Of a stretch of DNA of 33,687 nt, positions 7,574 through 29,741 are shown one piece after another. A program made the translations under genes and the position numbers. How positions within the stretch are numbered: the first letter of the stretch is position 1; each line of letters opens with the position of its first letter. Below the pieces are notes generated by a model, which saw only the letters and a program-made list of their open reading frames with translations, did not search any database and was not told where the DNA came from. The stretch comes from Bacillota bacterium (GTDB lineage Bacteria > Bacillota_I > Bacilli_A > Erysipelotrichales > Erysipelotrichaceae): positions 1 to 33,687 of the forward strand of contig JAJZTY010000007.1 in the NCBI GenBank assembly GCA_021847325.1, written 5' to 3'.

Positions 7574-7593
7574 ACTTGATCTCCATAAACAAA

Positions 7594-7614
7594 TGTCATT
7601 ATGTATGACATAAG
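7594..7614. promoter_or_regulatory. Operator 1: nested palindromes at the psuK start site
   Basis: ATGTCAT-N5-ATGACAT (7594-7612) overlaps TTATGT-N3-ACATAA (7600-7614). The region lies at the predicted psuK transcription start. The core TTATGTAT recurs 49 bases away at 7649. Confidence 0.5.
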
Positions 7615-7615
7615 T

Positions 7616-7645
7616 TTATTATAGTACGAAGTTTATAACTGTCAA
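7616..7645 (-). promoter_or_regulatory. Promoter of psuK-psuG
   Basis: On the minus strand there is a consensus TTGACA (7645-7640), then TATAAA at 18-base spacing or TATATA at 16. Transcription would start near 7609, inside operator 1. Confidence 0.65.
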
Positions 7646-7648
7646 GTG

Positions 7649-7662
7649 TTATGTATAATAAA
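7649..7662 (+). promoter_or_regulatory. Operator 2 overlapping the -10 box of the nucleoside hydrolase gene
   Basis: TTATGTATAATAAA shares its first eight bases with operator 1 and contains TATAAT (7654-7659), a perfect -10 box for the rightward gene, about 40 bases before its start codon. Confidence 0.5.
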
Positions 7663-7701
7663 TTTTAATTCTTGAGGTACAATTGAATTAAAAGGAGTTA
7701 T

Positions 7702-12450: not shown

Positions 12451-12478
12451 CAAGCACATCTTGTGCAAGGAGGACACA

Positions 12479-13831: not shown

Positions 13832-13879
13832 TACAACACTTGTAATCAATCCGTTTAACGAACATCGTTAGCGATAAAG

Positions 13880-13911
13880 AAAAGACCTATCGCTCCTTGC
13901 GTAGGTCTTTT
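13880..13911 (+). terminator. Internal, probably leaky terminator after the binding-protein gene
   Basis: AAAAGACCTA (13880-13889) pairs with TAGGTCTTTT (13902-13911). CGC/GCG inside the loop extend the stem past one bulged T. It separates the binding-protein gene from the permeases by a 102-base gap, the largest inside the ABC block. Confidence 0.75.
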
Positions 13912-13933
13912 ACTTCATTAGAAAGAAGGTATT

Positions 13934-14866
13934 ATGAATTGGATCAAAAAATTTTATAGTAATCATCCAAAATTCGCAAAGTATAGCTTTATATACGGAT
14001 TTCTTGCTATACCATTAACATTCTATGTAGTTTTCTACCTCTTCCCTAATATTCTATCAGTATACTATTCATTTATGAAGTGGAGTGGTTTGTCAGATCC
14101 AAAATTCATTGGGCTTCAGAATTATACTCGTCTTTTTAATGATCCATTCTTTTATGAATCTTTAAGTCATAATTTATTCCTAATGTTATTAGTCCCTTTT
14201 ATAACAATTAGTATTGCATTAGTTTTAGCTTTTTTCTTGGCTAGAGGAAAATCAAAAGTACATGATATTTTACAAGCATTGTTTTTTGTACCAAATATAA
14301 TTTCTTCAGTTGTTATTGGTCTTTTATGGGCATTTATATATAATGGTGATTTTGGCTTATTAAATACAATATTTGGATTGTTTGGAGTAGATATGGATGG
14401 ATTTTGGTGGCTTGGCAATGTTAATACTGCATTATTAGCTTTAGTTCCCGTTTATGTTTGGGTTAATGTAGGATTCTATACTTTGATTTTTACGAATGCA
14501 ATCAAGGGCATACCCGATTCTTTGTATGAAAGCGCAATACTTGATGGAGCAACAGAAGGTCAAATATTGAGAAAAATAGTCATTCCTATGATTATGGGTG
14601 TAATCTCAGTGAGTGCTTTGTTCTTAGTATTAATGACATTTAGATCGTATGACTTAGTATTGATATTGACTGGTGGAGGACCGGGTGGAGCAACACAAGT
14701 TGTAGGATTATATATGTTTAGTATGGTTTTCCAAATTTTAGGAACGGCTGCTCGAACTCCAAGTTATGGGTATGCATCAGCAATTGGAATTATATTATTT
14801 ATAATATTAATTATTGCAAAATTCATCATCGACAAAATAACCAAATCAGATGATATTGAGTATTAG
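13934..14866 (+). CDS. ABC sugar transporter permease 1 (MalF/UgpA type)
   Basis: The 310-residue inner membrane protein has six predicted membrane segments starting at about residue 18. The EAA loop that docks the ATPase is at 199-218 (ESAILDGATEGQ...). LTGGGPGGATQ, typical of first permeases, follows near the C-terminus. An AGAAAGAAGG ribosome site precedes the ATG. It pairs with the next gene to form the channel. No ATPase gene is present in the window, so a shared MsmX/UgpC-type ATPase elsewhere is expected. Confidence 0.93.
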   Translation: MNWIKKFYSNHPKFAKYSFIYGFLAIPLTFYVVFYLFPNILSVYYSFMKWSGLSDPKFIGLQNYTRLFNDPFFYESLSHNLFLMLLVPFITISIALVLAFFLARGKSKVHDILQALFFVPNIISSVVIGLLWAFIYNGDFGLLNTIFGLFGVDMDGFWWLGNVNTALLALVPVYVWVNVGFYTLIFTNAIKGIPDSLYESAILDGATEGQILRKIVIPMIMGVISVSALFLVLMTFRSYDLVLILTGGGPGGATQVVGLYMFSMVFQILGTAARTPSYGYASAIGIILFIILIIAKFIIDKITKSDDIEY

Positions 14867-14874
14867 GAGATAAA

Positions 14875-15702
14875 ATGAAAAAAAGAAATTCAATATTTGC
14901 AGAAATTTTACTGGCATTTTGGGCTAGTTTAATTATATTGCCATTGATTTGGATCGTTTATGTGTCGCTTAAAACAAACTATGAATTTTATTTGAATCCA
15001 TGGGCTTTACCTGAAAGTTTACAATTTGAAAATTATATTAATGCAATTATTACATTGAACTTAGGACCTGTTTTTCTAAATACACTCTATTTTGTATTTG
15101 GTGGTTTAATTGTAGGAGTTGCTGTTAATACATTAGCTGCATATATTTTGACTCGACTAGAATGGAAAGGGAAGAAGTTTATTTTAGGATTAATAATGTT
15201 GTCACTATTCTTGCCAGGTATAAACATACTAGTTCCACAATATGTATTAGCTGTATTTTTTAAACTAAATAACTCTCTAACTGGGTTGATATTACTTATA
15301 AATGTTGCATTAAGTGCCTTTGATATTTTATTAATGAGTAGTTTTATGCGTAGCATACCAAAGGAATTAGAAGAAAGTGCTCGAATTGATGGGGCGACTA
15401 TGTGGGTTATATTCTGGAAAATCATTTTTCCATTATCTATGCCAGGTATAATTACAATTTCAATCTTTAGATTCTTAAATTTATATAATGATTTTATCAA
15501 TCCGTTTATTTATCTTACAGATCCAAGTAAACACACAGTTGCTGTAAGTGTTTATTATGCGAATACAGTTTTAAGGTATACGTCAAATTACGTCACACTC
15601 TTTGCGGCAATTGTAGTATCACTTGTTCCAACATTAGTGATTTATGCCATTTTCCAAAAACGAGTTGTCGCAGGTGCAACTATAGGGGCTGTAAAAGGCT
15701 AG
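14875..15702 (+). CDS. ABC sugar transporter permease 2 (MalG/UgpE type)
   Basis: The 275-residue membrane protein has six membrane segments and the EAA loop at about 166-188 (EESARIDGATMW...), which matches the second permease of carbohydrate importers of the CUT1 group. It lies eight bases after permease 1, preceded by TAGGAG. CUT1 systems carry oligosaccharides and glycosides rather than monosaccharides, as a rule, which fits intracellular cleavage by the downstream enzymes. Confidence 0.93.
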   Translation: MKKRNSIFAEILLAFWASLIILPLIWIVYVSLKTNYEFYLNPWALPESLQFENYINAIITLNLGPVFLNTLYFVFGGLIVGVAVNTLAAYILTRLEWKGKKFILGLIMLSLFLPGINILVPQYVLAVFFKLNNSLTGLILLINVALSAFDILLMSSFMRSIPKELEESARIDGATMWVIFWKIIFPLSMPGIITISIFRFLNLYNDFINPFIYLTDPSKHTVAVSVYYANTVLRYTSNYVTLFAAIVVSLVPTLVIYAIFQKRVVAGATIGAVKG

Positions 15703-15714
15703 AAGGATATTATT

Positions 15715-16959
15715 ATGAAATTAATACTAATTGGCGCGGGTAACCGCGGCATGGAAATATATGCTCATTGGGTAAAAAATAACCATCCAGATGTTTCTTT
15801 TGTAGCAATGGCGGATCCTAATCTTAATAAACGTCTTCGGTTTTCTCGTGAGTTTAATATACCACTGGATGCATGTTATGATTCGTGGGAATCTATTCTT
15901 GAAGTTGAGAAATTAGCAGATGCAGCTATAATAGCAACACAGGATTTTATGCATTATGAACCAACTATGAGAGCTTTATCAAAAGGCTATCATGTCCTAT
16001 TAGAGAAACCAATCTCAGGTTCTAAACAAGAGTTAATTAATTTGCGAGAGCATGCTAAGTCACAAGAAAGAATCTTATCGATTGCACACGTATTAAGATA
16101 CTCAGATTTCTTCGGTGTTGTAAAACATTTGCTAGAAGAAAAAGTAATAGGTGAACTTAAAAGCATACAACATGAGGAAAATATAGCATATTATCATTAT
16201 GCACATAGTTTTGTGAGAGGACCATGGAATAGATCTGATATGGCAAATCCAATTATATTAGCTAAGGCTTGTCATGATATGGATTTAATGGCTTGGTATG
16301 TTGATTCAAAGTGTTCACGAGTCTCATCTTTTGGTGTTCAAAATACATTTATACAAATGAATAAACCAAAGGGGGTACCAGCTCGATGTGGAGAACATTG
16401 CCCACATGCAAAAAGCTGCTTATATGAAGTCAATAAACTTTATAAACAAGAAAAAGCTCAACACCTAGCTAAAATTATTGTAAATGAGTACGGTAGTTTA
16501 GAGAAAGGGTTTGAAGTATCAGATTATGGTAGATGTGTTTATGACTTAGATAATGATGTTATGGAAACACAAGTGACTTTGCTTGAATTTGAAAATGGCG
16601 TTCATGTTAGTTTTCATTTGTGCGCATTTACGGATGAAATATCAAGATATATGCATTTAATGGGGACTGAAGGAGAAATACGTGGAAATACTTTAGATCG
16701 AAAGATTACTGTAAAGCGTTATGATGAATCAGAAGAAAGAATTATACAAATCGGAGAGTCTGATTCACTACATGAAGGTGGAGATGCAGGCATTATAAAA
16801 GGATTCATTGAAGAAGTACAAGAGAACAATGTTAAAAATGGTCGTACTTCTGTAGATAAATCAATAATGAGTCATTTAATGTCATTAGCAGCAGAATCCT
16901 CTCGTATAAATCATAGAGTTATTGATTTAGAAGCTTTTGAGAAGGAGATTGATATATGA
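15715..16959 (+). CDS. Gfo/Idh/MocA oxidoreductase A with four-cysteine insertion
   Basis: The 414-residue protein has an NAD(P)-binding fold (GAGNRG, 7-12), the family EKP motif (97-99, catalytic Lys98) and KACHDMD with His187 in the position of the second catalytic residue. Between the usual core strands it carries Cys225, Cys229 and Cys235, then Cys274 in a CVY context, spacing that suggests a bound metal. This insertion recurs in the next two proteins. The family oxidises or reduces sugar hydroxyls, often at C3, or uses transient oxidation to cleave glycosides. The substrate is unknown. It is 12 bases after permease 2 and overlaps oxidoreductase B by four bases (ATGA). Confidence 0.88.
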   Translation: MKLILIGAGNRGMEIYAHWVKNNHPDVSFVAMADPNLNKRLRFSREFNIPLDACYDSWESILEVEKLADAAIIATQDFMHYEPTMRALSKGYHVLLEKPISGSKQELINLREHAKSQERILSIAHVLRYSDFFGVVKHLLEEKVIGELKSIQHEENIAYYHYAHSFVRGPWNRSDMANPIILAKACHDMDLMAWYVDSKCSRVSSFGVQNTFIQMNKPKGVPARCGEHCPHAKSCLYEVNKLYKQEKAQHLAKIIVNEYGSLEKGFEVSDYGRCVYDLDNDVMETQVTLLEFENGVHVSFHLCAFTDEISRYMHLMGTEGEIRGNTLDRKITVKRYDESEERIIQIGESDSLHEGGDAGIIKGFIEEVQENNVKNGRTSVDKSIMSHLMSLAAESSRINHRVIDLEAFEKEIDI

Positions 16960-18179
16960 AATTAGCATTAATTGGAGCAGGAAATCGTATAACTTTTCAA
17001 TATGCATTGAATTTATATCAAAAGTTTCAAGATACAGTCACTATTGTAGGTGTATTTGATCAGAACATGACTAGAGCAAATAAACTAAGTGAACGATTAG
17101 AAAATAAAGTAAAAGTTTATAGTAGCGCTGAGGCATTAATTAGTGAAAGTGGATGTGATACTGTTTTAATTGGTACATTAGATGCGACTCATGATTATTA
17201 TATTGATTTAGCAATGAGATTAGGATGTGATGTTATTTGCGAGAAACCAATCACAACAACAAAAGAGAAGGCTAATATTATTATAAATGCGGAGAAGGAA
17301 ACACAGAAGAAACTTACGATTACATTTAATTATCGTTTTACATTATTTGCGACTACTATAAAAGAAACACTTAAATCGCATTCAATTGGAAAAATTGAAA
17401 GCATTCATTTTGAGTGGTTATTGGATCAAGCACATGGTGCAGATTATTTTAGAAGATGGCATCGAGAAAAAAAGAATTCAGGTGGGTTAGCGGTTCATAA
17501 AGCAACTCATCATTTTGATTTAATCAATTGGTTAATAGAGAAAAAACCTATAGAAGTATATGCGAAAGGTGGGTTATATTTCTATGGCGCAAAGAATAGT
17601 TTATTTAATGGAACAAACTGTAGAGTATGTTTACATAAGAATGAATGTAAATTTTATAAAGATTATTCAAATGATGAAGCAATTAATTCTATGTTTTATC
17701 AAGCAGAACATGAAGATGGTTATTTTAGAGATGGGTGTGTATACTCAGAAAAAATTGATATAGAAGATACAATAACCGCACTTATTAGCTATGAAGATAA
17801 TATAGATATGAGCTATAAGCTTATTGCTTATGCTCCATATGAAGGTTACCGATTAAGTATCACAGGTGACAAGGGTAGAATTGAAGCAGAAGATTTTCAT
17901 GGTTTAGTTGGACCATATGCAAATAAACAAATTTATCTGTTAAATGTATATGATGATAACGGGAATAAAAAAGAAATAAATGTACCTGTATCTAGTGGAA
18001 GTCATGGTGGTGGAGATGATCGCATGATGGAGATGATTTTTGCGAACAAGATCATAACGGATCCTCTCAATCATATGGCAAATAGTGAAGCTGGATTCAA
18101 TGCAGCATATATTGGAATGGCTATAAATTTATCTCTGGCGGAAAATCGTGTTGTTCATATTGAAGAATTTAAAAGATAA
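16956..18179 (+). CDS. Gfo/Idh/MocA oxidoreductase B with four-cysteine insertion
   Basis: The 407-residue paralogue of the preceding protein has the nucleotide fold at GAGNR (7-11), EKP at 96-98 and a KATHHFD stretch with His185/His186. The cysteine insertion is Cys222, Cys225, Cys231 and Cys261 (again CVY). It is too divergent from A to be a recent duplicate, so the two probably act on different intermediates. It starts inside the stop codon of A, indicating coupled synthesis and perhaps complex formation. A GSHGGGDD stretch near residue 348 matches a glycine-rich HGGGD element in the others. Confidence 0.87.
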   Translation: MKLALIGAGNRITFQYALNLYQKFQDTVTIVGVFDQNMTRANKLSERLENKVKVYSSAEALISESGCDTVLIGTLDATHDYYIDLAMRLGCDVICEKPITTTKEKANIIINAEKETQKKLTITFNYRFTLFATTIKETLKSHSIGKIESIHFEWLLDQAHGADYFRRWHREKKNSGGLAVHKATHHFDLINWLIEKKPIEVYAKGGLYFYGAKNSLFNGTNCRVCLHKNECKFYKDYSNDEAINSMFYQAEHEDGYFRDGCVYSEKIDIEDTITALISYEDNIDMSYKLIAYAPYEGYRLSITGDKGRIEAEDFHGLVGPYANKQIYLLNVYDDNGNKKEINVPVSSGSHGGGDDRMMEMIFANKIITDPLNHMANSEAGFNAAYIGMAINLSLAENRVVHIEEFKR

Positions 18180-18203
18180 ACATAACATAAAGGAACTATT
18201 AAT

Positions 18204-19382
18204 ATGCAAAAATTTATTATTGTTGGTGGGGGAGCTCGTGGTATTTTCTTCTCGGAAATACTTGAAAACGAATTAAATTGTAAAGTTGTCGCTATTATGG
18301 ATAGCTTTGTGGAAGGTAATCCTTTTATCGAAGCTAGATTAAAAGACGCAAAGATTGAAGGTGTAGAAATCTTTAATGATATTGAATTAATGTTAGAAAA
18401 GTATCCTAGTGATAAAGTAGATGGTGCGTTTATTATGACACCAGAGTGGACACATTTATCAGTTTTTAAACGACTAACACAATCAAACTATAATATTTTT
18501 CTTGAAAAACCAATCGCTACAACTAAAGAAGCCATATTAGAAATTGGAGAAATCGCAAAGAATTATTCAAAAGTTATTCAAGTAGGATTTGTTATGCGTT
18601 ATTCTCCTTTCTATAGAAAGATAAAATCATGGATTGCGGAGAATGATTTAGGAAGAATCACACAAATTCAAATGAATGAAAGACTAACAGTTGTTCATGG
18701 AACTAAATTCAAGCGTAGTTGGCATAGAATGAAAGAATATACGGGTGGTTTCATGAACGAAAAATGTTCACATGATCTGGACATGATGTGTTGGATTAAA
18801 TCAAATGATGCAAAGCCAATTGGTGTAATGTCCATGGGGTCGCGTACATTTGCGCGTGAATCTGTAGGGCAAGTAAGTTGTTCAACATGCCCAGATAAAA
18901 AATGTATTTATCGAGAGGACATCACACAATACGCGAAATATCATGATGGTAAAGTGCTTTTAGACAAAACAGCTGGTGGAGTTAATGAATGTATCTACGG
19001 TAATACTTCTGATATAAATGATTCTCAAACAGTCATGGTTTTATTTGATGATAATACACATGGAATATTTAACGTTATTTCGATGAGTGGAAAAGATGGA
19101 AGAGATATTATGATACATTTTGAATATGGTCTTATTTTTGGTGATTTAGAAGAAGGGAATCTAACTAAAATGGATTATCGAAGAAATCAAACAGAGAAGT
19201 ATTATATTTCAGGAATGAATTTTCATGGTGGAGGTGATACTCAAGTTGTCAAAGAATTTACAGAATGTATCATCAATCAAACAAAACCAGTAGCTTCAGT
19301 CGAAGATGGTCTTAGAGCTTCACTATTATCCTTCTGTGCTGATGAAAGCATTGAAACAAAAGTATTTGTGGAGTTAACTTAA
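18204..19382 (+). CDS. Gfo/Idh/MocA oxidoreductase C with four-cysteine insertion
   Basis: The 392-residue third paralogue has the nucleotide fold at VGGGARG (7-13), EKP at 101-103 and KCSHDLD with His190. Its cysteines are 226, 229, 234 and 263 (CIY). HGGGD appears close to the C-terminus. The ribosome site is AAAGGA. Three tandem members with the same metal-like site suggest consecutive redox steps, for example oxidation, cleavage or epimerisation, then reduction that restores the cofactor. This is inference; no characterised exact counterpart is known to me. Confidence 0.87.
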   Translation: MQKFIIVGGGARGIFFSEILENELNCKVVAIMDSFVEGNPFIEARLKDAKIEGVEIFNDIELMLEKYPSDKVDGAFIMTPEWTHLSVFKRLTQSNYNIFLEKPIATTKEAILEIGEIAKNYSKVIQVGFVMRYSPFYRKIKSWIAENDLGRITQIQMNERLTVVHGTKFKRSWHRMKEYTGGFMNEKCSHDLDMMCWIKSNDAKPIGVMSMGSRTFARESVGQVSCSTCPDKKCIYREDITQYAKYHDGKVLLDKTAGGVNECIYGNTSDINDSQTVMVLFDDNTHGIFNVISMSGKDGRDIMIHFEYGLIFGDLEEGNLTKMDYRRNQTEKYYISGMNFHGGGDTQVVKEFTECIINQTKPVASVEDGLRASLLSFCADESIETKVFVELT

Positions 19383-20315
19383 ATGAATGAAATTCGCACT
19401 TTAAAAAATCAAAAAGAAATAGAGATGGCTTATAAATTATGTAATACTGTATTTTTTAAGTGCGAATCATTTTTTGAACGACGATATCCGCATGTCTTTA
19501 ATGAGTGCAATATCGATAATTTGTTTGGAGCTTTTTATAACGGTCAATTAGTAAGTTTCATCGCAACTTATCCTACAAAGATTGATTTCCTTAATTTAAC
19601 TTTAAATACGAGAATGTTAGGAGCGGTTTGTACATATAAAGATTTTCAAGGAAATGGATTTTCAACTAGCATTCTCAATTACATTGAAAAAGAACTAAGT
19701 AATAAAACAGATTTATTAGTTATTTCAGGTGATGGAAAGAATTATCTTAAATTTGGGGCCATGATTGTAGGGCAAATATACGAAGTTCATGTACCTAAAG
19801 AAAAGCTAAATGTCACTCAATTAGAATACAAAATTATTGAGCATATTGAGGAATTAGAAGTTGAAAAATACTACAATGCCTATGAACTTAAAACATTACC
19901 GAAATTTTTCAGAACCTTAGATGAAACAAAAAAAATGATTCAAGGTCATTTAGAACCACTAAATAATGAGCATAACTATGTTATACATGATTTGAATTAT
20001 CAATCATTCTCATGCATTAGAATTGGCTTTGAAGGCGATATTAAGATTGCTTATGTTATAGAGAGTGTGGGTAATTTAAAATTAATTGTTGATATGATTG
20101 AGGATTTTGCTGTTAAAAACGATTGCGAAAAATTATTTTATCGGACGACAGAAATAGTTAAAAAACACCAAGATTATACATTTTCAACTCCTATTACTGG
20201 AACAATGAAAGTTATAAACCCTAATTTAAAACTTAGTGCTTTGGATATATTTGGTGATTTAAATAAGAGAGGACATTACCCTTGTATAAGGGTTGATGAT
20301 TTAAACTTTCTATGA
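19383..20315 (+). CDS. GNAT-family N-acetyltransferase
   Basis: The 310-residue protein has a GNAT acetyl-CoA site in its first half (MLGAVCTYKDFQGNGFSTSIL, with the Q-x-x-G-x-G/A pattern at the pyrophosphate loop). An additional C-terminal region of about 150 residues is unlike simple GNATs and recalls larger Eis-like two-domain members. It starts directly at the stop codon of oxidoreductase C and overlaps the next gene by four bases. In a sugar pathway it might acetylate an amino sugar or a released amine, but neither the substrate nor the need for acetylation beside a NagA-like deacetylase is clear. Confidence 0.8.
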   Translation: MNEIRTLKNQKEIEMAYKLCNTVFFKCESFFERRYPHVFNECNIDNLFGAFYNGQLVSFIATYPTKIDFLNLTLNTRMLGAVCTYKDFQGNGFSTSILNYIEKELSNKTDLLVISGDGKNYLKFGAMIVGQIYEVHVPKEKLNVTQLEYKIIEHIEELEVEKYYNAYELKTLPKFFRTLDETKKMIQGHLEPLNNEHNYVIHDLNYQSFSCIRIGFEGDIKIAYVIESVGNLKLIVDMIEDFAVKNDCEKLFYRTTEIVKKHQDYTFSTPITGTMKVINPNLKLSALDIFGDLNKRGHYPCIRVDDLNFL

Positions 20316-22237
20316 AAATATTAAAAGAAATTGAAGATTTATCATACCATGGTCTCTTAAATGTTGATTCTAAGGATCAATTAAATCAAATGATTATTAA
20401 TCGTTCTCATAACGCATTTAAGAAAAGAGATCGTAAAAAGAAATCAATAAAACTATTATCTGATCTTAAGAAACATCAATCTTGGATTGAAGTATCAGTT
20501 CTCAAAGCGTTAGGTGACATACCATATACAACAAAATCACTGAATGCGAAACTTGTTAAGGTAGACAAGTACGAATTTTATTCGCGTGAAAATATCGTAT
20601 TCGAATCTTTAGAAAAAATCTACGTAACGGCGAATCTGTACAAACCAAATTTTACTAAAAAAGATCGCTTTCCATGTATTTTATTAGTATGTGGACATCA
20701 GAATTTGGGTAAGCATTCAGAAGAGTATCAATTTGTAGCTCAAACTCTGGTTTCTTATGGATTCATTGTGTTTGTGATTGACAATTTTGGGCAAGGTGAG
20801 CGATTTAGCTATTTTGAAAATAATGTTCAATCAGTTGAACCATTGACCTATGAGCATGATCATGCTGGGTATCAATCAAGTTTAATTGGGGATAACATAG
20901 CTAGATATATGGTATATGATCATATTCGAGCAATTGATTATCTGGAAACGAGAAATGATATTGATATGAGTCGTTTAGGTATTACTGGTAATTCTGGTGG
21001 AGGGACAATTACTTCGTTGCTCATGATTTTAGAGAAACGTATAAAAGCTGCTGCTCCGGCAACATTTATTACAAGACGAGATATCTATCAAAAAACTGGA
21101 CAAGCACAAGATCGCGAACAACATTGGTTTAATTTAACAGAGATTGGTTTTGATCATGAAGATATATTACTTGCTTTTGCACCAAAACCACTTAGGGTAT
21201 TGGTTGCAGAATATGACTTTTTTCCAATAGAAGGAACTTTAAAATCATTTGAACTTGCAAAAAAAGGTTATTGTTTATATTTTCATGAATCGAATTTAAG
21301 TTTGAAACGATTTCCAATAGAACATAGTTATCCTATTGAAATGGCAGAGGATGCTGCTTTATTCTTTCAACTTTGTTTTGATTATCATTATCATCAAACA
21401 ATAGAATTAAAATATGATGATAATTGTCTTTGTACATATACAGGTCAAGTAGCAAGTTCTTTTTTAGACGCTCGATTTGTTTATGAATTAAATCTAGAAA
21501 GATTAAACCAAATTCAAAATAATTCGCGTCTTAATAAAACTAAATATTTACATCAATATTTAAATAAGATGATATATCAACATCGTGTTTTCGAAAATTA
21601 TAATTCAAAACGTAACAGAGTTTTTGATAGCAATGATTTATTTATTGTTGAACATTGGACGTATCAATCTCAAATAGACATGACATCAAGTTTGTTGTGG
21701 TTTAAGAACAATATAAGAAGTAATTCAATTGTATTAGCAATATGGCCAAATGGATCTTCGAATCTAGAAAAACATGGAGATTTTATTCTTAAATGTATAA
21801 GAGATAATAAAGATATCATTGTTTTAGATTTATGTGGCGAAGGCTTCTTACAACAAAGAGAATTAGTTTGGTGGGCGAAGAGCGATGAAGCTTATGGATC
21901 GTTGTATAAATTAAATGACGATTTATTTTGGTTAGGTGATTCACTTGCGTCACTTAGAACATACGAAGTTATCAAAGCAATAGAGTGGATTAAAATTCAA
22001 ACGCCATTAATGTTAGAAGTGCATGCTTTTCAAACACATAATGTTTATGCGAAGTTTGCCTTAGAGTTATTATCATATCGAATTTCATATCAAGAACATG
22101 ATGGATTTAGTGGATATCAGAATTGGATTAAGCAAAAAGTTTACGACGAGAAATATGGCAGAGATATTTTATTTCCAAACATACTTAAGTATGGAGATAT
22201 TCAGGATATAGATATATCTAAAAAGGAGCTATTATGA
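20312..22237 (+). CDS. Two-domain alpha/beta hydrolase, probable carbohydrate esterase
   Basis: The 641-residue cytosolic protein has an N-terminal alpha/beta hydrolase related to acetyl-xylan esterase-like (Abhydrolase_7) proteins. A complete triad is visible: Ser228 in GNSGG, Asp302 in AEYDFF and His338 in IEHSYP. LLVCGHQNLGKH at 124-135 supplies the oxyanion region. The second half (about 430-641) looks like another hydrolase fold (IVLDLCGEGFLQQRE, then DSLASLRTYEVIKAIEW) but has no G-x-S-x-G serine, so it is probably a structural or binding domain. It may remove acetyl or other ester groups from the imported sugar. It overlaps both neighbours by four bases. Confidence 0.8.
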   Translation: MKILKEIEDLSYHGLLNVDSKDQLNQMIINRSHNAFKKRDRKKKSIKLLSDLKKHQSWIEVSVLKALGDIPYTTKSLNAKLVKVDKYEFYSRENIVFESLEKIYVTANLYKPNFTKKDRFPCILLVCGHQNLGKHSEEYQFVAQTLVSYGFIVFVIDNFGQGERFSYFENNVQSVEPLTYEHDHAGYQSSLIGDNIARYMVYDHIRAIDYLETRNDIDMSRLGITGNSGGGTITSLLMILEKRIKAAAPATFITRRDIYQKTGQAQDREQHWFNLTEIGFDHEDILLAFAPKPLRVLVAEYDFFPIEGTLKSFELAKKGYCLYFHESNLSLKRFPIEHSYPIEMAEDAALFFQLCFDYHYHQTIELKYDDNCLCTYTGQVASSFLDARFVYELNLERLNQIQNNSRLNKTKYLHQYLNKMIYQHRVFENYNSKRNRVFDSNDLFIVEHWTYQSQIDMTSSLLWFKNNIRSNSIVLAIWPNGSSNLEKHGDFILKCIRDNKDIIVLDLCGEGFLQQRELVWWAKSDEAYGSLYKLNDDLFWLGDSLASLRTYEVIKAIEWIKIQTPLMLEVHAFQTHNVYAKFALELLSYRISYQEHDGFSGYQNWIKQKVYDEKYGRDILFPNILKYGDIQDIDISKKELL

Positions 22238-22968
22238 AATTTATTCTAAGTAAAGACGCTGAAGAACTTGGTGAAAAAGTAGCTCAAGCTTCAAAACTTA
22301 TTATTGATCAAGCGATTAAAGAAAAAGGTGAGGCAAGAGTTATCTTTTCAACTGGAGCATCTCAATTTACGACTTTTGATGCATTACTAAGATTAGATAT
22401 AGATTGGTCAAAAGTTGTCGCATTTCACTTAGATGAATATATAGGGATTGATGAATCTCATCCTGCTAGTTTTATAAAGTACTTAAAAGAGCGCTTTGTG
22501 AATAAAGTAAGTCTAAAGAAGTTTTATTTTGTTGATCCAAAAGAAGGAGTATTAAATTGTATTCGTAAACTTACACACGAAATAACTGAAAGTAAGATTG
22601 ATTTAGGCCTTATTGGAATTGGTGTAAATGGTCATATAGCATTTAACGATCCTCCAGCAGATTTTACCACAGAGGAAAGTTATCATATTGTTCATTTAGA
22701 TCAAACTTGTCGTTTACAACAAATGGGTGAAGGTTGGTTTGAAACATTAGATGATGTGCCAAAACAAGCCATATCAATGACTGTTCAGCAGATTTTGAAA
22801 TGCAATAAAATAATTTCAGCTGTTCCATATAAAGTAAAAGCAGAAGCGATATCTAATTTATACTACGCTAGTGCAGCTAATCCAATGTTACCAGCATCTG
22901 CATTTTTAAATCATTCTAATGTAGAAATTTATTTGGATGAGGATTCAGCATCCTTAATTGAGGTGTAA
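22234..22968 (+). CDS. nagB: Glucosamine-6-phosphate deaminase, variant NagB/AgaI family
   Basis: The 244-residue protein converts an amino-sugar 6-phosphate to a ketose phosphate and ammonia. HLDEY (Asp67) and GIGVNGHIAFND (131-139, His134) are the family's active-site stretches. The residue equivalent to E. coli Glu148 is Asp139, and the phosphate loop is STGASQ instead of SGSTP-like forms, so it belongs to a side branch whose substrate could be GlcN-6-P or GalN-6-P. It is coupled to the esterase gene by a four-base overlap. An AgaS-like enzyme at the end of the island offers a second deaminase. Confidence 0.85.
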   Translation: MKFILSKDAEELGEKVAQASKLIIDQAIKEKGEARVIFSTGASQFTTFDALLRLDIDWSKVVAFHLDEYIGIDESHPASFIKYLKERFVNKVSLKKFYFVDPKEGVLNCIRKLTHEITESKIDLGLIGIGVNGHIAFNDPPADFTTEESYHIVHLDQTCRLQQMGEGWFETLDDVPKQAISMTVQQILKCNKIISAVPYKVKAEAISNLYYASAANPMLPASAFLNHSNVEIYLDEDSASLIEV

Positions 22969-22969
22969 T

Positions 22970-24898
22970 ATGAGATATATTTTAAGACAAACGATTTTAG
23001 AATCAACATGGAAAAGACAAATAAATGAAATAATAGAATTGTCAAAAAAAGTGCCGATTGAAGAAGTGATGTTTATGGAACAGTCTCATCAAATTATGAT
23101 GGTGCCGTATCCTTTAAGTAAACACAAAGTAATGGCTAATATATATAAGAACATAGCTCAACAACTCAAAGAGGTTGGAATTGATTATTCAATAAACATA
23201 GCAACGATTGTAGGTCATTCAGATGCTCTTGTGTCGGATGAAATGGTTTTACCTTTTCAAAAATTTGTGGGAGAAGACTTAAAAGAAAGGCATGCAGTTT
23301 ATTGTATTGGAGATACAGATTGGCAGTCGTATGCTCAAGAAGTAGTTAGTTTGTATGCTCAGACACATCCGAAACGCATTATGATTGATGATGACTTTAG
23401 ATCATTAAATCATACACTTCAATTTGGTTGTTTTTGCGATTTACACTTGGATGCTTTAAGGAATGAATTATCACTACCAAAAACATTTTCAGCAAATGAC
23501 TTAATTGAATCATTACTTGGTAAGAATGACAATGAAATTCAAATAAAACAAGCTTGGCAAAAAATCAATTTTGAATTCCAACTAAGTGCAGCTCATAAAA
23601 TTGAGGAGGCAATACATTCAATCGATCCAAATATTGAAGTTGGTTTAATGAACTCCGGTGAGCAAGCGCATTCGATCCAAGGAAGGGATATGACTAAGCT
23701 TTTAGAAGCATTTGCTGGCAAAGGTCGGAAAGCACTCTCGAGACCAGCGGGTGGAGTGTATGCTGATGGGGTACATGATCAAATCATAAATATGCATCAA
23801 ACTCCTGCATTAAGCTACTTTGCTTCAAAGATTGATACTACATGGGTTTCTGAAGTAGAGAATTGGCCGCATTCGAGATACATTAAGAGTATTGCCATCA
23901 CGAAACTCCAAATGTTAATGCACACCCTATTTGGGGCAGATGCAATAACATTAAACCTTTATGATTATTTAGCTACTCCTCATTATTTAGAACAAGATTG
24001 GGAAGAAATGCTAATTGAATTAAAACCAAAATTAAGTCAGCTACAATCAATTCGTAAAGACAAAAAACTAAGGGGAATAAGTTTGCCATGGGAATCAAAT
24101 TTTGCTTCTATAAAATATAACCGTACTCATAGTTTTAATGACTTATATCCAAAACGACAACTTGATTTACTTTTACCGCAAATGGGTATTCCAACTCAAT
24201 TTGAACCTTCTAATATCAATATATTATTAGGAGATGATGTGCTTGCTTACAGTCTAGATACTTTAATGGATTATTTAAAAAATGGATTATTATTAGACAA
24301 TGTTGCTGCAAAACACTTAATATCAAAAGGTTTACATGAATATTTAGGTGTTACTTTTTTTGATAAGTTAACTGAACCGTGTACAGAACGCTTAACTGAT
24401 ATAGATTTCTCAGGTGCTTATTTTGGATGTGACTTACCTACAAATTGGTTTAGAATGGATATTCAAGGAGAAAGTATAGATGAGTTAAAATTGAGCTCAA
24501 ATGCTAAAGCAATCGCTCAATTAGTTAACCATAATAATGTAATTATTAGCCCAAGTATCGCTATTTTTGAAAACAGTCTCGGTGGGAAAGTGGCTGTTAT
24601 GGCTCAAACAGTTCAAGAACTAGCTTTTTTACATCGTGGGAAATCAATTCAAATTCAGTCTATCTTTAATTGGATGGGATTTAAATATCAAAGATTTTTG
24701 GTCAAGGATCAACCTAATGTTGCGCCATTTATTTATGAAGATGATTATCAAGGGTTATATGTACTTGTAAACACAGGTTTAGATGAAGTAAATATACATT
24801 TATCAGAAGGGCTGGAAAGTGTTTTTGAAGAAGATTCCGATAATATAGTATTAAAACCATTCGGTTTCAAAGCATTTACTTATAAGGTGCAGTCATGA
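22970..24898 (+). CDS. Unclassified TIM-barrel glycoside-hydrolase-like protein
   Basis: The 642-residue protein begins at ATG 22970, seven bases after GAGGTG and one base past the nagB stop. It has no signal peptide. The first ~380 residues look like a (beta/alpha)8 barrel: GDTDW near 114, IDDDFR at 139-144, a VSEVENWPHSRY stretch with Glu295 and Glu297, and HTLFGADAITLNLYD at 318-332. A middle domain resembling the region after the barrel in GH42-like enzymes and a small C-terminal beta domain follow. Paired acids at 140-142 and 295-297 are candidate catalytic residues. I cannot place it in a named GH family. Its place beside nagA and nagB suggests it cleaves the imported glycoside. Confidence 0.7.
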   Translation: MRYILRQTILESTWKRQINEIIELSKKVPIEEVMFMEQSHQIMMVPYPLSKHKVMANIYKNIAQQLKEVGIDYSINIATIVGHSDALVSDEMVLPFQKFVGEDLKERHAVYCIGDTDWQSYAQEVVSLYAQTHPKRIMIDDDFRSLNHTLQFGCFCDLHLDALRNELSLPKTFSANDLIESLLGKNDNEIQIKQAWQKINFEFQLSAAHKIEEAIHSIDPNIEVGLMNSGEQAHSIQGRDMTKLLEAFAGKGRKALSRPAGGVYADGVHDQIINMHQTPALSYFASKIDTTWVSEVENWPHSRYIKSIAITKLQMLMHTLFGADAITLNLYDYLATPHYLEQDWEEMLIELKPKLSQLQSIRKDKKLRGISLPWESNFASIKYNRTHSFNDLYPKRQLDLLLPQMGIPTQFEPSNINILLGDDVLAYSLDTLMDYLKNGLLLDNVAAKHLISKGLHEYLGVTFFDKLTEPCTERLTDIDFSGAYFGCDLPTNWFRMDIQGESIDELKLSSNAKAIAQLVNHNNVIISPSIAIFENSLGGKVAVMAQTVQELAFLHRGKSIQIQSIFNWMGFKYQRFLVKDQPNVAPFIYEDDYQGLYVLVNTGLDEVNIHLSEGLESVFEEDSDNIVLKPFGFKAFTYKVQS

Positions 24899-26073
24899 AG
24901 ACATTATTTAAAAACGCAAGAGTTGTTTTAGAAAATCGGATTGAAGAAGACTATTCATTATTAATTGAAAATGATCATATTTTGGCATATGGACCTAACA
25001 CATTTTTTATTGATAATTATGATTTAATAATCGATGTAAAGAATCAATTTATTTCACCAGGATTTATTGATTTACATGTACATGGTGGTGGTGGTGCAGA
25101 TTTCATGGATCATAATAATGAAAAATTTAAGATAATAACTCAAGCTCATGCTAAACATGGGATGACTGCATGTCTCGCTACAACACTGTCTTCTTTAAAT
25201 GAAGAGGTATTTGAATTATTAGAGAAGTGTCCAAAAGAAGATGAAAACCTAGAAGGTGCACGAATTTTGGGTGTTCATCTTGAAGGACCATATTTCTCTA
25301 TGGAACAACGAGGCGCACAAGATCCAATGTATATAAAAACTCCACAAGTAGAAGAGGTTAATGAGTTCTTAAAGTATAAACATCAAATAAAGCGATGGAG
25401 TATGGCAGTTGAATTGGAAAATATGGATAAAATTATCCCTATAATCAAACAAAATAACATATTAGTTTCATTGGCTCATACCAGTGCCACAGCGCAAGAA
25501 GTAATTAAATCAGAGGATTGGGGAGTAAGTCTTGCGACACATTTCTATTCTGGTATGGGAAGTATATATCGAATAAAAGGGTTGAGAGCTGCTGGGGCAG
25601 TTGAAGGTGTCTATCTTTCAAAATCAATGATTGCAGAAATCATTGCGGATGGTAAGCATTTACCGAAAGAGTTAATTCAGATGATATATAAATTTCTCGG
25701 AGCTAAACGTGTAATTTTAACTACAGATGCAATGCGTGCAGCTGGGACGGATCATATGGAATCAATACTCGGATCATTAGAAAAGGGACAAAGAGTAATA
25801 ATCAAAGATTGGGTTGCCAAACTACCAGATGAAACATCTTTAGCTGGTTCAATCGCAACTATGGATCGCTTATTAAAGACAGTTTTAGATGCTGGTATAT
25901 CAATGGTAGATGGTGTAAATTCCATTTCTTTGTTACCAGCTAAACTAATTCATGTTGATGATCGCTATGGAAAGATTGAACCTAACTACAAAGCGGATTT
26001 TGTTATATTTGATGATGATATTAATATAATCTCTACGTATATAAATGGGAAATGTGTTTATCATAATGCATAA
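24895..26073 (+). CDS. nagA: N-acetylglucosamine-6-phosphate deacetylase
   Basis: The 392-residue amidohydrolase removes acetate from an N-acetylhexosamine 6-phosphate. Metal and catalytic residues are visible: His61 and His63 (HVHGGGG), Glu130 (HLEGPYF), His195 (LAHTSAT), His216 (ATHFYSG) and the base Asp278 (TTDAM). GlcNAc versus GalNAc (AgaA) preference cannot be told from these motifs; THFYSGM in place of the usual THLFNAM is slightly unusual. It overlaps the preceding gene by four bases and the next by eight. Confidence 0.9.
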   Translation: MKTLFKNARVVLENRIEEDYSLLIENDHILAYGPNTFFIDNYDLIIDVKNQFISPGFIDLHVHGGGGADFMDHNNEKFKIITQAHAKHGMTACLATTLSSLNEEVFELLEKCPKEDENLEGARILGVHLEGPYFSMEQRGAQDPMYIKTPQVEEVNEFLKYKHQIKRWSMAVELENMDKIIPIIKQNNILVSLAHTSATAQEVIKSEDWGVSLATHFYSGMGSIYRIKGLRAAGAVEGVYLSKSMIAEIIADGKHLPKELIQMIYKFLGAKRVILTTDAMRAAGTDHMESILGSLEKGQRVIIKDWVAKLPDETSLAGSIATMDRLLKTVLDAGISMVDGVNSISLLPAKLIHVDDRYGKIEPNYKADFVIFDDDINIISTYINGKCVYHNA

Positions 26074-27310
26074 TTCAAATAGAAAAGAAAAAATACTTCA
26101 GTTCGGTAGTGGAAATTTCTTGCGTGGTTTCATAGAACCGTATATACAAAAAATGAATGAACTAGGTTATTTTGATGGATCTGTTGTTATTGTAAAACCA
26201 ACACCAATAGGAACTATTGAACAACTGAATAATCAAAATGGTAAATACACTCTCTTTATTAGAGGGTTAAGTAACTATAGAGAAATTAAAGAGAGAATTG
26301 ATATCAATATAATTTCGAGAGCAGTAAACCCATATTCAAATTTTAAAGAGTTTATAAACTTATCGAAAAATCCTGATCTGAGATTTATCATTTCTAATAC
26401 AACGGAAAGTGGTTATGAATTATTTGAAAAAGATAGTCTACATTCGAAACCAGCACAATCATTCCCAGGGAAATTATTACAATTATTGTATGAACGATAT
26501 AAATTAAATCTTAAAGGTTTCATTGTGCTTCCGTGTGAACTAATTCATAAAAATGGATTAAAGTTAAAAGAATTAATGTTTCAGTTAAGTTTTAAATGGG
26601 GGTTGGAAGAAGATTTTAGAATTTGGTTAGAAGAGGAGAACCTATTTGTTAACACACTAGTAGATCGTATTGTAACTGGGTTTCCAAAAGATGAATATGA
26701 AAGTCTTAGAAGAGAAATCGATTTTGAAGATAAGCTAATGAATGTTGCTGAAGTTTATAATTTGTGGGTGATTGAATCAAATTTAGAACACGAATTACCA
26801 CTACAAAAAAGCGGAATAAATGTGATATGGACAAAGGATATACAGTTATATGAACAAAGAAAAGTTCGTATTTTAAATGGAGCTCATATATTACTTGTCA
26901 CCTTTGCACTAGTAAAAGGGTACGTAGAAGTTCGCGCTTCATTACTTGACAATGAAATTAGAAACAAAATTGAAATGATACTAAAAGAAGAGATAATTCC
27001 GAGTTTAAATATGCCTGAGGATGACTTGCTTGAATATATGAGTGTTGTAATAGAGAGGTTTTTAAACCCATTTATTCATCATAAGCTAACATCTATTGCA
27101 CTTAATGCATATGACAAGTTTAAAGTAAGAATAATACCTAGTATTCTTTCTTATCATCATAAATACGAAAAGTATCCAAAAGGATTAATGGAATCATTTG
27201 ATGCTCTATTTGAGTTATATCACACTGATTTGTGTCAGGATACACCTGAAAAAATTGCGTATATTAGAAATCACACGAAAGAAGAGGTATTTAAAGCGTT
27301 ATGCGAATAA
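26066..27310 (+). CDS. uxaB: Tagaturonate reductase (altronate dehydrogenase)
   Basis: The 414-residue protein belongs to the mannitol dehydrogenase family and reduces D-tagaturonate to D-altronate with NADH. The start at ATG 26066 puts the Rossmann motif ILQFGSGNFLRGF at the expected distance. SNTTESG, then ELIHKNG (the catalytic Lys-Asn region), and LVDRIVTGFPKDE follow the order seen in UxaB rather than UxuB. It overlaps nagA by eight bases and uxaA by ten, so it is firmly in the operon. A uronate isomerase (UxaC) that would supply tagaturonate is not in the window. Confidence 0.88.
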   Translation: MHNSNRKEKILQFGSGNFLRGFIEPYIQKMNELGYFDGSVVIVKPTPIGTIEQLNNQNGKYTLFIRGLSNYREIKERIDINIISRAVNPYSNFKEFINLSKNPDLRFIISNTTESGYELFEKDSLHSKPAQSFPGKLLQLLYERYKLNLKGFIVLPCELIHKNGLKLKELMFQLSFKWGLEEDFRIWLEEENLFVNTLVDRIVTGFPKDEYESLRREIDFEDKLMNVAEVYNLWVIESNLEHELPLQKSGINVIWTKDIQLYEQRKVRILNGAHILLVTFALVKGYVEVRASLLDNEIRNKIEMILKEEIIPSLNMPEDDLLEYMSVVIERFLNPFIHHKLTSIALNAYDKFKVRIIPSILSYHHKYEKYPKGLMESFDALFELYHTDLCQDTPEKIAYIRNHTKEEVFKALCE

Positions 27311-28668
27311 ACCCGATCGATAATGTAGAAGTTGACTTAACAACAGGCCATAAGAAAGCAATAGCTGATATTTCTAATGGTGAAAAAATTATTAAGTATG
27401 GAATGCCAATTGGGTTAGCCATATGTAATATTTCATTAGGTGAACATGTGCATACACATAATATGAAAACACTATTAAATAATATAGAAACATATGAGTA
27501 CACACCTATAATGGATCCTTTAGAATATACATCTCCTAGAACAATTATGGCTTATGAAAGAGAAGATGGTCAAATTGGTATTAGAAATGAGATTTGGATA
27601 ATAGCAACAGTTGGATGTATAAATAAAACAGTTGAAAGACTAGCGAAAATGACTGGAGCAAAAGCAATTACGCATCCCTATGGTTGTTCACAGTTAGGTG
27701 GAGATTTATTAACTACTCAAAAAATACTAGCAGGATTGGTTCATCATCCAAATGCAGGAGGTGTTTTGGTATATGGACTTGGCTGTGAGAATAATACGGT
27801 GGATAGTTTTAAACAAATAATAAAAGATTTTAATCCAAAACGAGTAAAATTCGTTTATGGTCAATTAAGTGATAACGATATTGAAGAATCAATCGAAAAA
27901 ATAAATGAACTAAAAGAATATGCTGCTCAATTTAAGCGCACTCCACAACCAATTTCAAAGTTAAAAGTCGGGTTAAAATGTGGTGGAAGTGATGGATACT
28001 CAGGCTTGAGTGCAAATCCTTTAGTTGGGATGTTTTCAGATAGTTTGATATCTCAAGGTGGGAGCACCGCACTGACAGAAGTACCAGAAATGTTTGGAGC
28101 TGAACGTTTACTAATGAATCGCTGTATAGATGCAGATATATTTAATAAAACTGTTGATTTAATAAATAATTTCAAACGATACTTTCAAAAATATGATCAA
28201 GTTATTTATGATAATCCATCGCCTGGAAATAAAGAAGGTGGAATTACGACACTTGAAGATAAATCTTTAGGTTGTATTCAAAAAGGTGGGAGCGCAAGAA
28301 TTGTGGATGTTTTAGATTATGGTGACCCTATGATTAAAAAGGGACTTCATTTAATAAACGGCCCTGGGAATGATTTAGTATCTATAACAAACTTAACAGC
28401 AGCTGGCTGCCAACTTATTCTATTTACAACTGGTCGAGGAACTCCATTAGGAGGGTTGGTTCCAACTATAAAAATAGCGTCGAATCATTCATTAGCATCG
28501 CGTAAAGCACATTGGATAGATTATGATGCATCTCCAATATTAGATGGATGTGATATTAAAGATGAGTTCTTCAATTTTGTTGTTGATGTTGTTAATGGTA
28601 AAGAAACTTTGAATGAAATAAATGGATACGCAGAATTAGCAATCTTTAAGGATGGAGTCATACTATAA
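27301..28668 (+). CDS. uxaA: Altronate dehydratase
   Basis: The 455-residue protein dehydrates D-altronate to 2-keto-3-deoxygluconate, the substrate of the island's KdgK. Residues 1-75 form a SAF domain (GEHVHTHNMKT). The core holds the conserved THPYGCSQLGGD, GLGCENN and KCGGSDGYSG stretches whose cysteines and histidines bind the iron centre in this family. The C-terminal AGCQLILFTTGRGTPLG stretch is also typical. It is fused in the usual one-chain form of UxaA. It is coupled to uxaB by overlap and precedes the SIS gene by five bases. Confidence 0.93.
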   Translation: MRINPIDNVEVDLTTGHKKAIADISNGEKIIKYGMPIGLAICNISLGEHVHTHNMKTLLNNIETYEYTPIMDPLEYTSPRTIMAYEREDGQIGIRNEIWIIATVGCINKTVERLAKMTGAKAITHPYGCSQLGGDLLTTQKILAGLVHHPNAGGVLVYGLGCENNTVDSFKQIIKDFNPKRVKFVYGQLSDNDIEESIEKINELKEYAAQFKRTPQPISKLKVGLKCGGSDGYSGLSANPLVGMFSDSLISQGGSTALTEVPEMFGAERLLMNRCIDADIFNKTVDLINNFKRYFQKYDQVIYDNPSPGNKEGGITTLEDKSLGCIQKGGSARIVDVLDYGDPMIKKGLHLINGPGNDLVSITNLTAAGCQLILFTTGRGTPLGGLVPTIKIASNHSLASRKAHWIDYDASPILDGCDIKDEFFNFVVDVVNGKETLNEINGYAELAIFKDGVIL

Positions 28669-28673
28669 ATTCT

Positions 28674-29741
28674 ATGGAAACATATGTAACACTAAAAGAA
28701 ATCCAGAATCAACCTCGTCTCTGGAAAGAAACAATAGAATTAATTATTAACAAGAAAAAAGAAATAGAAATATTTCTAAAGCCATTAAAAGATAAAGGAA
28801 ATATAAAAATAATCTTTATTGGAGCTGGCAGTTCAGAGTATGTCGGAAATAGTTTAGTGCTAGGTTTAAACCCTTATTATAATTATTCAATGAGAAGTAT
28901 TGCAAGTACTGAAATAGTTGATGATCCTTATGAAATTGTAGATCCAAATGAAACATATTTAGCAATTTCGTTTGGTAGAAGTGGAAACTCACCTGAATCT
29001 TTACATGCAATAACTGCATTAAATCATGTCTGCTCAAATGTATACCATATGGCTATAACGTGTAATAAAGAGGGTAAGTTAGCTCAAATTGATAGATTAA
29101 TTGCTAATTCATTTGTATTAGTTTTACCTGAAGAAACTCATGATCAAGGATTTGCGATGACTTCTAGTTTTAGTTCAATGTCCTTAGCTGCATATTTCAT
29201 ATTACATCCAACAGATATAAATAATAAACTAAAAAAAATGATTGAAGATGTAGAAAGACTGTGTGGTAAATGGATAAATCAAGCAAAGAAAATAGTACAA
29301 GAATTTGACTTCAATCGATATGTTGTTTTAGGTGGTCACGAGTCAAAAGGATTTGCACAAGAAAGTGCTTTGAAAATGTTGGAATTATCTTCAGGTAGAG
29401 TATCAACACAATTCGACTCACCAATGGGATTTAGACATGGTCCAAAATCATTTTTAAATCAAGATACTCTAGTCGTTATATTTAAGAGAAACTCTATATC
29501 TTCAAGAGCATATGAAAACGATATTATCCAAGAAATAGAAAGAAGTCCACGTAGAAGTAAAGTACAAATTTTAAATTATAATTTTGAAGATAAATATTTA
29601 AGCTCGCTTTCTCAAATGATATTTACTCAAAGCTTAGCTTATTTCAAGTCAATTTCATTAAACATAAATCCTGATTTCCCCTCAGATGATAATGAAGTAA
29701 ATCGTGTTGTTACTGGAGTAACAGTATATCCTTACATATAA
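28674..29741 (+). CDS. agaS: SIS-domain sugar isomerase/deaminase, AgaS-like
   Basis: The 355-residue protein has two SIS domains (IIFIGAGSSEYVGNSL near 46; then YVVLGGHESKGFAQESALKMLELS). GFRHGPKSF and the terminal VNRVVTGVTVYPY are hallmarks of AgaS, which deaminates and isomerises galactosamine-6-phosphate to tagatose-6-phosphate. This hints that the amino sugar is GalNAc-derived. No tagatose-6-phosphate kinase or aldolase lies nearby. It is the last gene of the island, closed by a strong terminator. Confidence 0.83.
   Translation: METYVTLKEIQNQPRLWKETIELIINKKKEIEIFLKPLKDKGNIKIIFIGAGSSEYVGNSLVLGLNPYYNYSMRSIASTEIVDDPYEIVDPNETYLAISFGRSGNSPESLHAITALNHVCSNVYHMAITCNKEGKLAQIDRLIANSFVLVLPEETHDQGFAMTSSFSSMSLAAYFILHPTDINNKLKKMIEDVERLCGKWINQAKKIVQEFDFNRYVVLGGHESKGFAQESALKMLELSSGRVSTQFDSPMGFRHGPKSFLNQDTLVVIFKRNSISSRAYENDIIQEIERSPRRSKVQILNYNFEDKYLSSLSQMIFTQSLAYFKSISLNINPDFPSDDNEVNRVVTGVTVYPYI

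Follow-up and report, generated by a model that had tools for sequence, protein, structure and literature searches.

An unclassified GH42-fold protein family with Asp-Asp in place of Asn-Glu: a probable intracellular glycosidase in a sugar-uptake operon of a gut bacterium

Described enzymes with comparable folds

Several described proteins share parts of their architecture with the one considered here (the target), which is encoded in a tight sugar-uptake operon of a gut bacterium. With GH42 beta-galactosidases (5e9a, 1kwg, and 4uni) it has in common the whole three-domain architecture, the Glu of barrel strand 7, and a C-x-C-x2-[C/H] cluster that follows strand 4 and has a further Cys upstream. 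A zinc-binding Cys cluster is a feature of GH42. The two differ at strand 4, where GH42 has Asn-Glu and all 80 aligned rows of the target family have Asp-Asp. Passages in PMC7105311 name Glu314 of 5e9a as its nucleophile and Glu157 as its acid/base, and give Glu160 and Glu297 as the residues used by Bs164 (6t5o), a GH164 beta-mannosidase. Bs164 also has the three-domain plan of the target, but its strand-4 acid/base is a Glu where the target has Asp, and there is no sequence match between them.

Parts of PMC5933820 and PMC13366581 describe PgaB as a two-domain CE4-GH153 periplasmic protein, and the former gives an Asp as its probable catalytic acid; an acid of this kind in such a barrel therefore has precedent. 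The C-terminal GH153 domain of PgaB shares with the target the barrel, an Asp at strand 4, and a Glu (Glu607) that falls on Glu295 of the target. The target, however, is predicted to be cytoplasmic, has no CE4 match in Pfam, and carries two further domains of GH42 type. The GHL10 domain of Cwp19 has the barrel fold and, according to passages in PMC5765458, carries at strand 4 an Asp-Asp pair with an aromatic residue directly after it, as in the target; it differs in having Gly328 against Glu295 of the target, and Cwp19 is a secreted S-layer protein. The same source treats Glu607 of PgaB and Gly328 of Cwp19 as the nucleophile position or its counterpart. Lastly, the GH151 alpha-L-fucosidase iso2 (6tvk) resembles the target in full-length fold and in its strand-4 Asp, but its strand-6 acid/base Glu has no conserved counterpart there. 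The target family could be assigned to none of the named families compared here.

The gene and its family

The window (the whole 33,687-nt stretch of DNA analysed) holds the target gene in the positions given in Table 1. The reading frame runs for 642 codons before a stop; a TTG at 22958 would give 646 aa, but the ATG at 22970 is preferred because GAGGTG precedes it at a usable spacing. The nagB-like gene upstream is 1 base away, and nagA downstream overlaps by 4 bases. By a simple hydrophobicity measure the target has no hydrophobic N-terminal stretch and no signal peptide: within residues 1-45 the best 15-residue Kyte-Doolittle mean reaches 0.65, whereas the binding protein of the same operon, taken as a control, reaches 2.75. 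A preliminary description of this gene had given the same reading frame, coordinates, length, and start, had placed it between nagB and nagA, and had seen no signal peptide, all of which is borne out. It had also found that the protein fits no nameable family and had proposed an HMM search against CAZy families; searches of Pfam and NCBIfam gave no strong match to any GH family (best Pfam E 0.18; NCBIfam, none).

The same holds for 62 family members (61 relatives and the target), among which no GH family of Pfam was matched at E <= 0.1 and no NCBIfam family convincingly. Against PDB sequences the target reached only chance level (E 0.013), and profiles of 6, 80, and 62 rows found nothing above it. 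C-terminal "GBP1" matches (E 0.013) and GH30 C-terminal matches (E 0.48) were rejected, being put down to chance or to a likeness that beta domains share in general. Within the 62-row alignment (A6), a single member matches a GDSL lipase domain (E 3.8e-12) and a single member AP_endonuc_2 (E 1.9e-5); these are possibly domain fusions or wrong starts. The family lies outside Pfam and NCBIfam; it may already be listed in CAZy.

By sequence comparison this is a real family, more than chance, because the target has a 68% identical ortholog, its nearest relative, in a congener, because 80 loci were kept of the 153 relatives found in the genome collection with a small seed profile, and because some residues are identical in 80 of 80 rows. 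Near home it is rare (2 of 194 relatives, 2 of 395 genomes of the class, and 1 of 392 of the phylum, each count including the target's own genome). In the tree, the target and six others (L009-L014) form a clade of seven rows with SH-aLRT support of 100, while most other rows stand at about 20-28% identity. Members occur in Bacillota, Actinomycetota, Spirochaetota, Planctomycetota, Lentisphaerota, Verrucomicrobiota, Chloroflexota, and others; two scans confirmed no viral copies, and viral fold matches were weak. Two loci carry two family copies each (L061:7830-11851 and L059:3225-11310), which are in tandem in Paenibacillus psychroresistens.

The 80-row alignment (A2) started from the 80 kept loci, leaving out three cut by contig ends (L045, L055, and L073) and one near copy (L065, of L064); it gained L006, the target itself, and the additional copy present in each of L059 and L061. 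Alignments A5 and A6 are 44 and 62 of these rows, and the plasmid relatives L003-L005 enter only alignment A1 and the context counts.

Table 1. Positions of the target gene, its domains and selected codons, and the other genes of the operon. Domain boundaries are approximate and in residues of the target.
Feature	Position	Strand	Basis or remark
Target, 642-aa GH42-fold protein	22970..24898	+	ORF then stop; structure model; fold comparison
Barrel domain	about residues 1-362		DSSP
Middle domain	about residues 366-570		DSSP
C-terminal beta domain	about residues 584-640		DSSP
Cys112 codon, first ligand of putative metal site	23303..23305	+	79/80 rows
Asp141-Asp142 codons, end of barrel strand 4, GH42 Asn-Glu position	23390..23395	+	80/80 rows; structural register
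Codons 154-159 (C-F-C-D-L-H), rest of putative metal site	23429..23446	+	Conservation; GH42 spacing
Glu295 codon, end of barrel strand 7, GH42 nucleophile position	23852..23854	+	80/80 rows; register
Glu297 codon	23858..23860	+	Glu 74/80, Asp 6/80 rows
KDPG/KHG aldolase (Eda type), first gene of operon	9515..10468	+	
PfkB-family kinase	10471..11490	+	Nearest to KDG-type kinases
AraC-type regulator	11497..12369	+	
ABC sugar importer	12461..15702	+	Binding protein 12461-13831; permeases 13934-14866, 14875-15702
Three Gfo/Idh/MocA oxidoreductases	15715..19382	+	15715-16959, 16956-18179, 18204-19382
GNAT acetyltransferase	19383..20315	+	
Alpha/beta-hydrolase esterase	20312..22237	+	Best solved relative 6goc
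Divergent NagB-like deaminase	22234..22968	+	Below NCBIfam cut-offs
NagA-like deacetylase	24895..26073	+	Above TIGR00221 cut-off
Tagaturonate reductase (UxaB)	26045..27310	+	Above NCBIfam cut-off
Altronate/galactarate dehydratase family (UxaA)	27301..28668	+	Pfam, NCBIfam
SIS-domain AgaS-family sugar isomerase/deaminase	28674..29741	+	

Fold and active site

The AlphaFold2 model of the target, built from 80 rows (pLDDT 95.1, pTM 0.94), is a complete three-domain protein of GH42 type. In a Foldseek search of the PDB the top 27 among the matches listed, aligned over nearly the whole protein, are GH42 or GH42-type (beta-galactosidases and one alpha-L-arabinopyranosidase), the best being 5e9a (E 2.9e-20, TM 0.66); GH151 (6tvk), a beta-1,2-glucosyltransferase (7x87), and GH164 follow in that order. 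Alignment with VIA, in which entries less than 1 Z apart count as tied, gave Z 23.6 for 5e9a (rmsd 4.1, 571 aligned), 22.8 for 1kwg (4.3, 542), and about 20.6 for Bs164 (3.8, about 540). The barrel alone also resembles GH153, the C-terminal domain of PgaB (4p7l) reaching Z 23.1 (rmsd 3.4, 315 aligned), and Cwp19 Z 22.4 (3.5, 296). The TIM barrel and "GH42-like tail" of the preliminary description are, in a fold comparison of the kind it had suggested, upheld by a high-confidence model that has a barrel and matches GH42 over its full length, residues 1-640. The residues it had singled out (Asp140-142, Glu295, and Glu297) also prove to be conserved, with Glu295 at the GH42 nucleophile position.

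Sequence profiles do not make the same connection. An hhalign comparison of the target family with GH42 gave a probability of 1.1% (E 0.046, not significant), and the best local block of a second attempt, which kept only four GH42 sequences, had E 0.041. Two GH42 genes (L089 and L090) have the usual D-N-E and C-x-C-x2-C, and the cluster spacing of the target is that of L089. Membership in GH42 fails on the sequence match and on the Asn-Glu motif, despite the fold and the strand-7 Glu.

Two motifs hold the conserved acids, IDDDFR at residues 139-144 and VSEVENW at 293-299. D141, D142, R144, R258, E295, and G369 are identical in all 80 aligned rows; at position 140 Glu (48 rows) alternates with Asp (32 rows), and position 143 holds F, I, W, T, or H but never Glu. 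To place these residues, segment 134-298 was modelled alone (pLDDT 89.9; segment residue i is protein residue i+133) and aligned by VIA, at modest Z (4.9-6.4); a Foldseek search with this half-barrel found nothing at E < 0.001, and only its VIA alignments were used. The register is read from the ends of the aligned ranges and assumes no gap between range end and site. At one end, residue 134 aligns with residue 149 of 5e9a, 133 of 1kwg, 134 of 6lvw, 459 of PgaB, and 189 of Cwp19; at the other, residue 298 aligns with 317, 315, 315, 610, and 331, respectively. Glu295 then falls on Glu314 of 5e9a, residue 312 of both 1kwg and 6lvw, Glu607 of PgaB, and Gly328 of Cwp19, a consistent placing in all five entries. 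The acid falls on Asp142 in two (5e9a Glu157 and 1kwg 141) and on Asp141 in three (6lvw 141, PgaB Asp466, and Cwp19 Asp196), with Asp142 on PgaB Asp467. Glu312 of 1kwg and 6lvw is taken here to be the nucleophile, and residue 141 of 1kwg the acid/base. In these models Glu295 occupies the GH42 nucleophile position, and in the target family the Asn-Glu acid/base motif of GH42 is replaced by Asp141-Asp142.

The putative metal site consists of C112 followed by C154-x-C156-x2-H159. Cys154 and Cys156 are each present in 79 of 80 rows; residue 159 is His in 75 and Cys in 4, an alternation that looks like that of a metal ligand. To judge from this pattern Cys112, Cys154, Cys156, and His159 may bind a metal, whose role would be structural.

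From the computed family, fold, conservation, Glu295 register, and operon we infer hydrolysis, retention, the identity of the acid Asp, and the metal. The preferred reading, to which we give a probability of roughly 70%, is that the target is a cytoplasmic glycoside hydrolase of GH42 plan, retaining, with Glu295 as nucleophile and an Asp as acid, which cleaves an imported glycoside. It would work like a retaining glycosidase of GH42 or GH164 type: Glu295 would attack the anomeric carbon, and the leaving group would be protonated by an Asp of the Asp141-Asp142 pair (142 is preferred, 141 possible), which would replace the GH42 glutamate.

The same fold could be used otherwise. GH151 is matched by Foldseek over the full length of the target (6tvk, rank 28, E 3.7e-16), and parts of PMC10154630 place the nucleophile of this enzyme, Asp154, at strand 4. 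By analogy the strand-4 Asp of the target would be the nucleophile, acting on an alpha-linked sugar, with some other residue as acid/base. The GH151 acid/base is, however, a strand-6 Glu, while strand 6 of the target (255-258) ends in the invariant Arg258 and has no Glu among its invariant or 90% columns; the target has its invariant Glu295 at strand 7 instead. A mechanism of this kind seems improbable.

Operon, neighbourhoods, and possible substrates

The target is gene 13 in a run of 17 genes on the same strand (9515-29741), where the largest gap is 102 bases and several genes overlap by at least 4 bases. Apart from this run, the window has at 5556-8658 an Indigoidine_A/PsuG-like gene, a PfkB kinase with HTH, and a nucleoside hydrolase, which looks like pseudouridine/nucleoside catabolism. 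Since none of the other 16 operon genes matches a glycosidase family in Pfam, the target is the operon's only glycosidase candidate. The importer would bring in an oligosaccharide or other glycoside, which the target would cleave in the cytoplasm with net retention. The preliminary description had likewise proposed a likely glycosidase acting inside the cell on an imported compound; the GH42 fold, the Glu295 register, and the lack of another candidate support the first part as a predicted activity, and the importer and missing signal peptide the second. From its model, the target is best regarded as a glycosidase that acts inside the cell, probably with retention, and that represents an unclassified family of GH42 fold.

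A non-hydrolytic role would give more weight to the three MocA enzymes, which might oxidise the imported glycoside to a keto-sugar, leaving the target to cleave or isomerise the intermediate. Published abstracts report oxidation of glycosides before cleavage by oxidoreductases of the MocA type, and the three MocA genes belong to the core shared by the window and the 68% relative. MocA-type genes lie within 10 kb of the family gene in 19 of 84 loci; in the other 65, many of them cut short, there is no such match. The Pfam matches of the operon, however, include no keto-sugar eliminase of a known type, and a carboxylate pair at strands 4 and 7 is what a hydrolase requires, so that this role is rather unlikely. 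By likeness to solved structures the middle MocA protein (16956-18179) is about equally, and weakly, similar to inositol 2-dehydrogenases and WbpB.

The locus of the 68% relative (L009/L007, genome G006) keeps the AraC regulator, binding protein, permeases, three MocA genes, GNAT, esterase, and target. Upstream it lacks the KDPG aldolase and the kinase, and downstream it lacks nagB, nagA, uxaB, uxaA, and agaS. That the nag genes define the function of the target is weakened by this genome, which has 0 nagB matches and a UxaB-like match that is weak (E 6.4e-5). Elsewhere in the clade, L010 has MocA, GNAT, nagB-like, and the target gene, then SIS, an ROK kinase, a PfkB/LacC-like kinase, and a class II aldolase; L012 has permeases, esterase, MocA, nagB-like, MocA, target, and nagA; and in L013 and L014 the target gene is accompanied by permeases and followed by a sulfatase. 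A farther relative, L044, has nagB-like and nagA genes, two GH4, an importer, an esterase, and the target gene, together with UxaE, SIS, tagatose-1,6-diphosphate aldolase, and LacC.

Across the family, relatives adjoin sulfatases, carbohydrate esterases, GH4, and ABC importers, and many members seem to lie among glycan-catabolic genes, with glycans that differ between loci. Within 2.5 kb of the family gene there is a SASA-type esterase in 21 of 84 loci and a BNR protein in 17 of 84. Like the MocA counts above, these are raw figures with no background control: sequence extends for 2.5 kb to either side of the gene in only 58 of the 84 loci, near copies (L004 and L050, for example) enter separately, and part of the loci are hand-annotated. 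Some loci have a conserved three-gene cassette (e.g., L046:8492-13048) with a SASA-type carbohydrate esterase upstream of the family gene and BNR_2 downstream; the clade with this cassette is mostly from gut Oscillospiraceae and relatives, and its esterase is sialate-type. In L029 the family gene is followed by a catalase, an unrelated neighbour.

The nearest solved structure to the esterase of the operon is 6goc (E 6e-13), labelled a DUF3826 protein, which we take to be BT1017. A published abstract describes BT1017 as a pectin methylesterase. Our reading is that the operon handles a uronate-containing glycan; its genes would suit a glycoside that contains either an N-acetylated amino-uronate or HexNAc and uronate as separate sugars, and the sugar released would most likely be a uronic or amino-uronic acid, a HexNAc, or both.

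If HexNAc and uronate are separate, the target could be an N-acetylhexosaminidase, with released GlcNAc or GalNAc phosphorylated elsewhere and passed through nagA, nagB, and agaS, and a uronate feeding uxaB, uxaA, and the KDG genes. The operon nagA is above its equivalog cut-off, the neighbours of L010 and L044 resemble the classical GalNAc/galactosamine route, and the sulfatases of L013 and L014 also fit. The operon genes scanned include no HexNAc kinase, however; its nagB is divergent (120 bits), a canonical copy lying elsewhere in the genome (G000:C144, 262 bits); and in this 81%-complete genome there is no uxaC to feed the uronate genes. This assignment is possible, with the odds somewhat against it. 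An aryl-HexNAc substrate is one option only, because the flanking nag genes lie outside the conserved core.

A more speculative proposal, which we consider doubtful, is that the target represents a new GH family of the GH42 superfamily with an Asp acid, here releasing an N-acetylated 2-amino-2-deoxy-uronate, of which the GalNAcA of bacterial capsules is an example; this sugar would then be catabolised through NagA- and NagB-like enzymes into the Uxa route. Deacetylation by the NagA-like enzyme would be followed by a NagB/AgaS-like deaminating isomerisation straight to tagaturonate, and then by UxaB, UxaA, KDG kinase, and KDPG aldolase. Using neither a HexNAc kinase nor a uronate isomerase, the route would explain why the former and UxaC are missing. 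UxaC was found neither in the source genome (81% complete) nor in seven congeners, is present in 1 of 16 relatives, and was not found in the genome of L044, where UxaE is beside the family gene; of the 7 genomes that were searched by way of their loci, 4 have it. The open-access literature yielded no description of the target's family and none of this route.

The phosphate sites of the two nag products bear on the amino-uronate route. At the position of Arg172 of E. coli NagB, presumably a phosphate-site residue, the operon NagB and those of L012 and L044 have a G-E-G insertion and that of L010 R-E-G; E. coli AgaI likewise lacks this residue. The operon sequence (22234-22968) has here a QQxGEGWF-type insertion against the D/A-N-A/S-R-F motif of canonical NagB. 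A single pathway for all divergent congener NagBs was rejected, as copies in G001, G003, G007, and G117 are in other contexts. Against the route, the operon NagA not only passes the TIGR00221 cut-off but keeps the counterparts of Arg227 and His251 of E. coli NagA, which we assume to be phosphate ligands; the 68% relative does without the catabolic genes; and the genome is incomplete (81%). In the source genome the operon nagA alone was found to match TIGR00221, a sign either of an ordinary role for this gene or of the fifth of the genome that is missing.

For genome annotation based on Pfam and NCBIfam, the absence of a model in either library means that this presumably carbohydrate-active family is missed. 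The Asp-for-Glu replacement in an otherwise GH42-like site offers a direct test of how a single fold can accommodate a change in acid/base chemistry. Should the amino-uronate route prove true, the operon would represent catabolism of a capsule amino-uronic acid, joining two textbook pathways in a new order.
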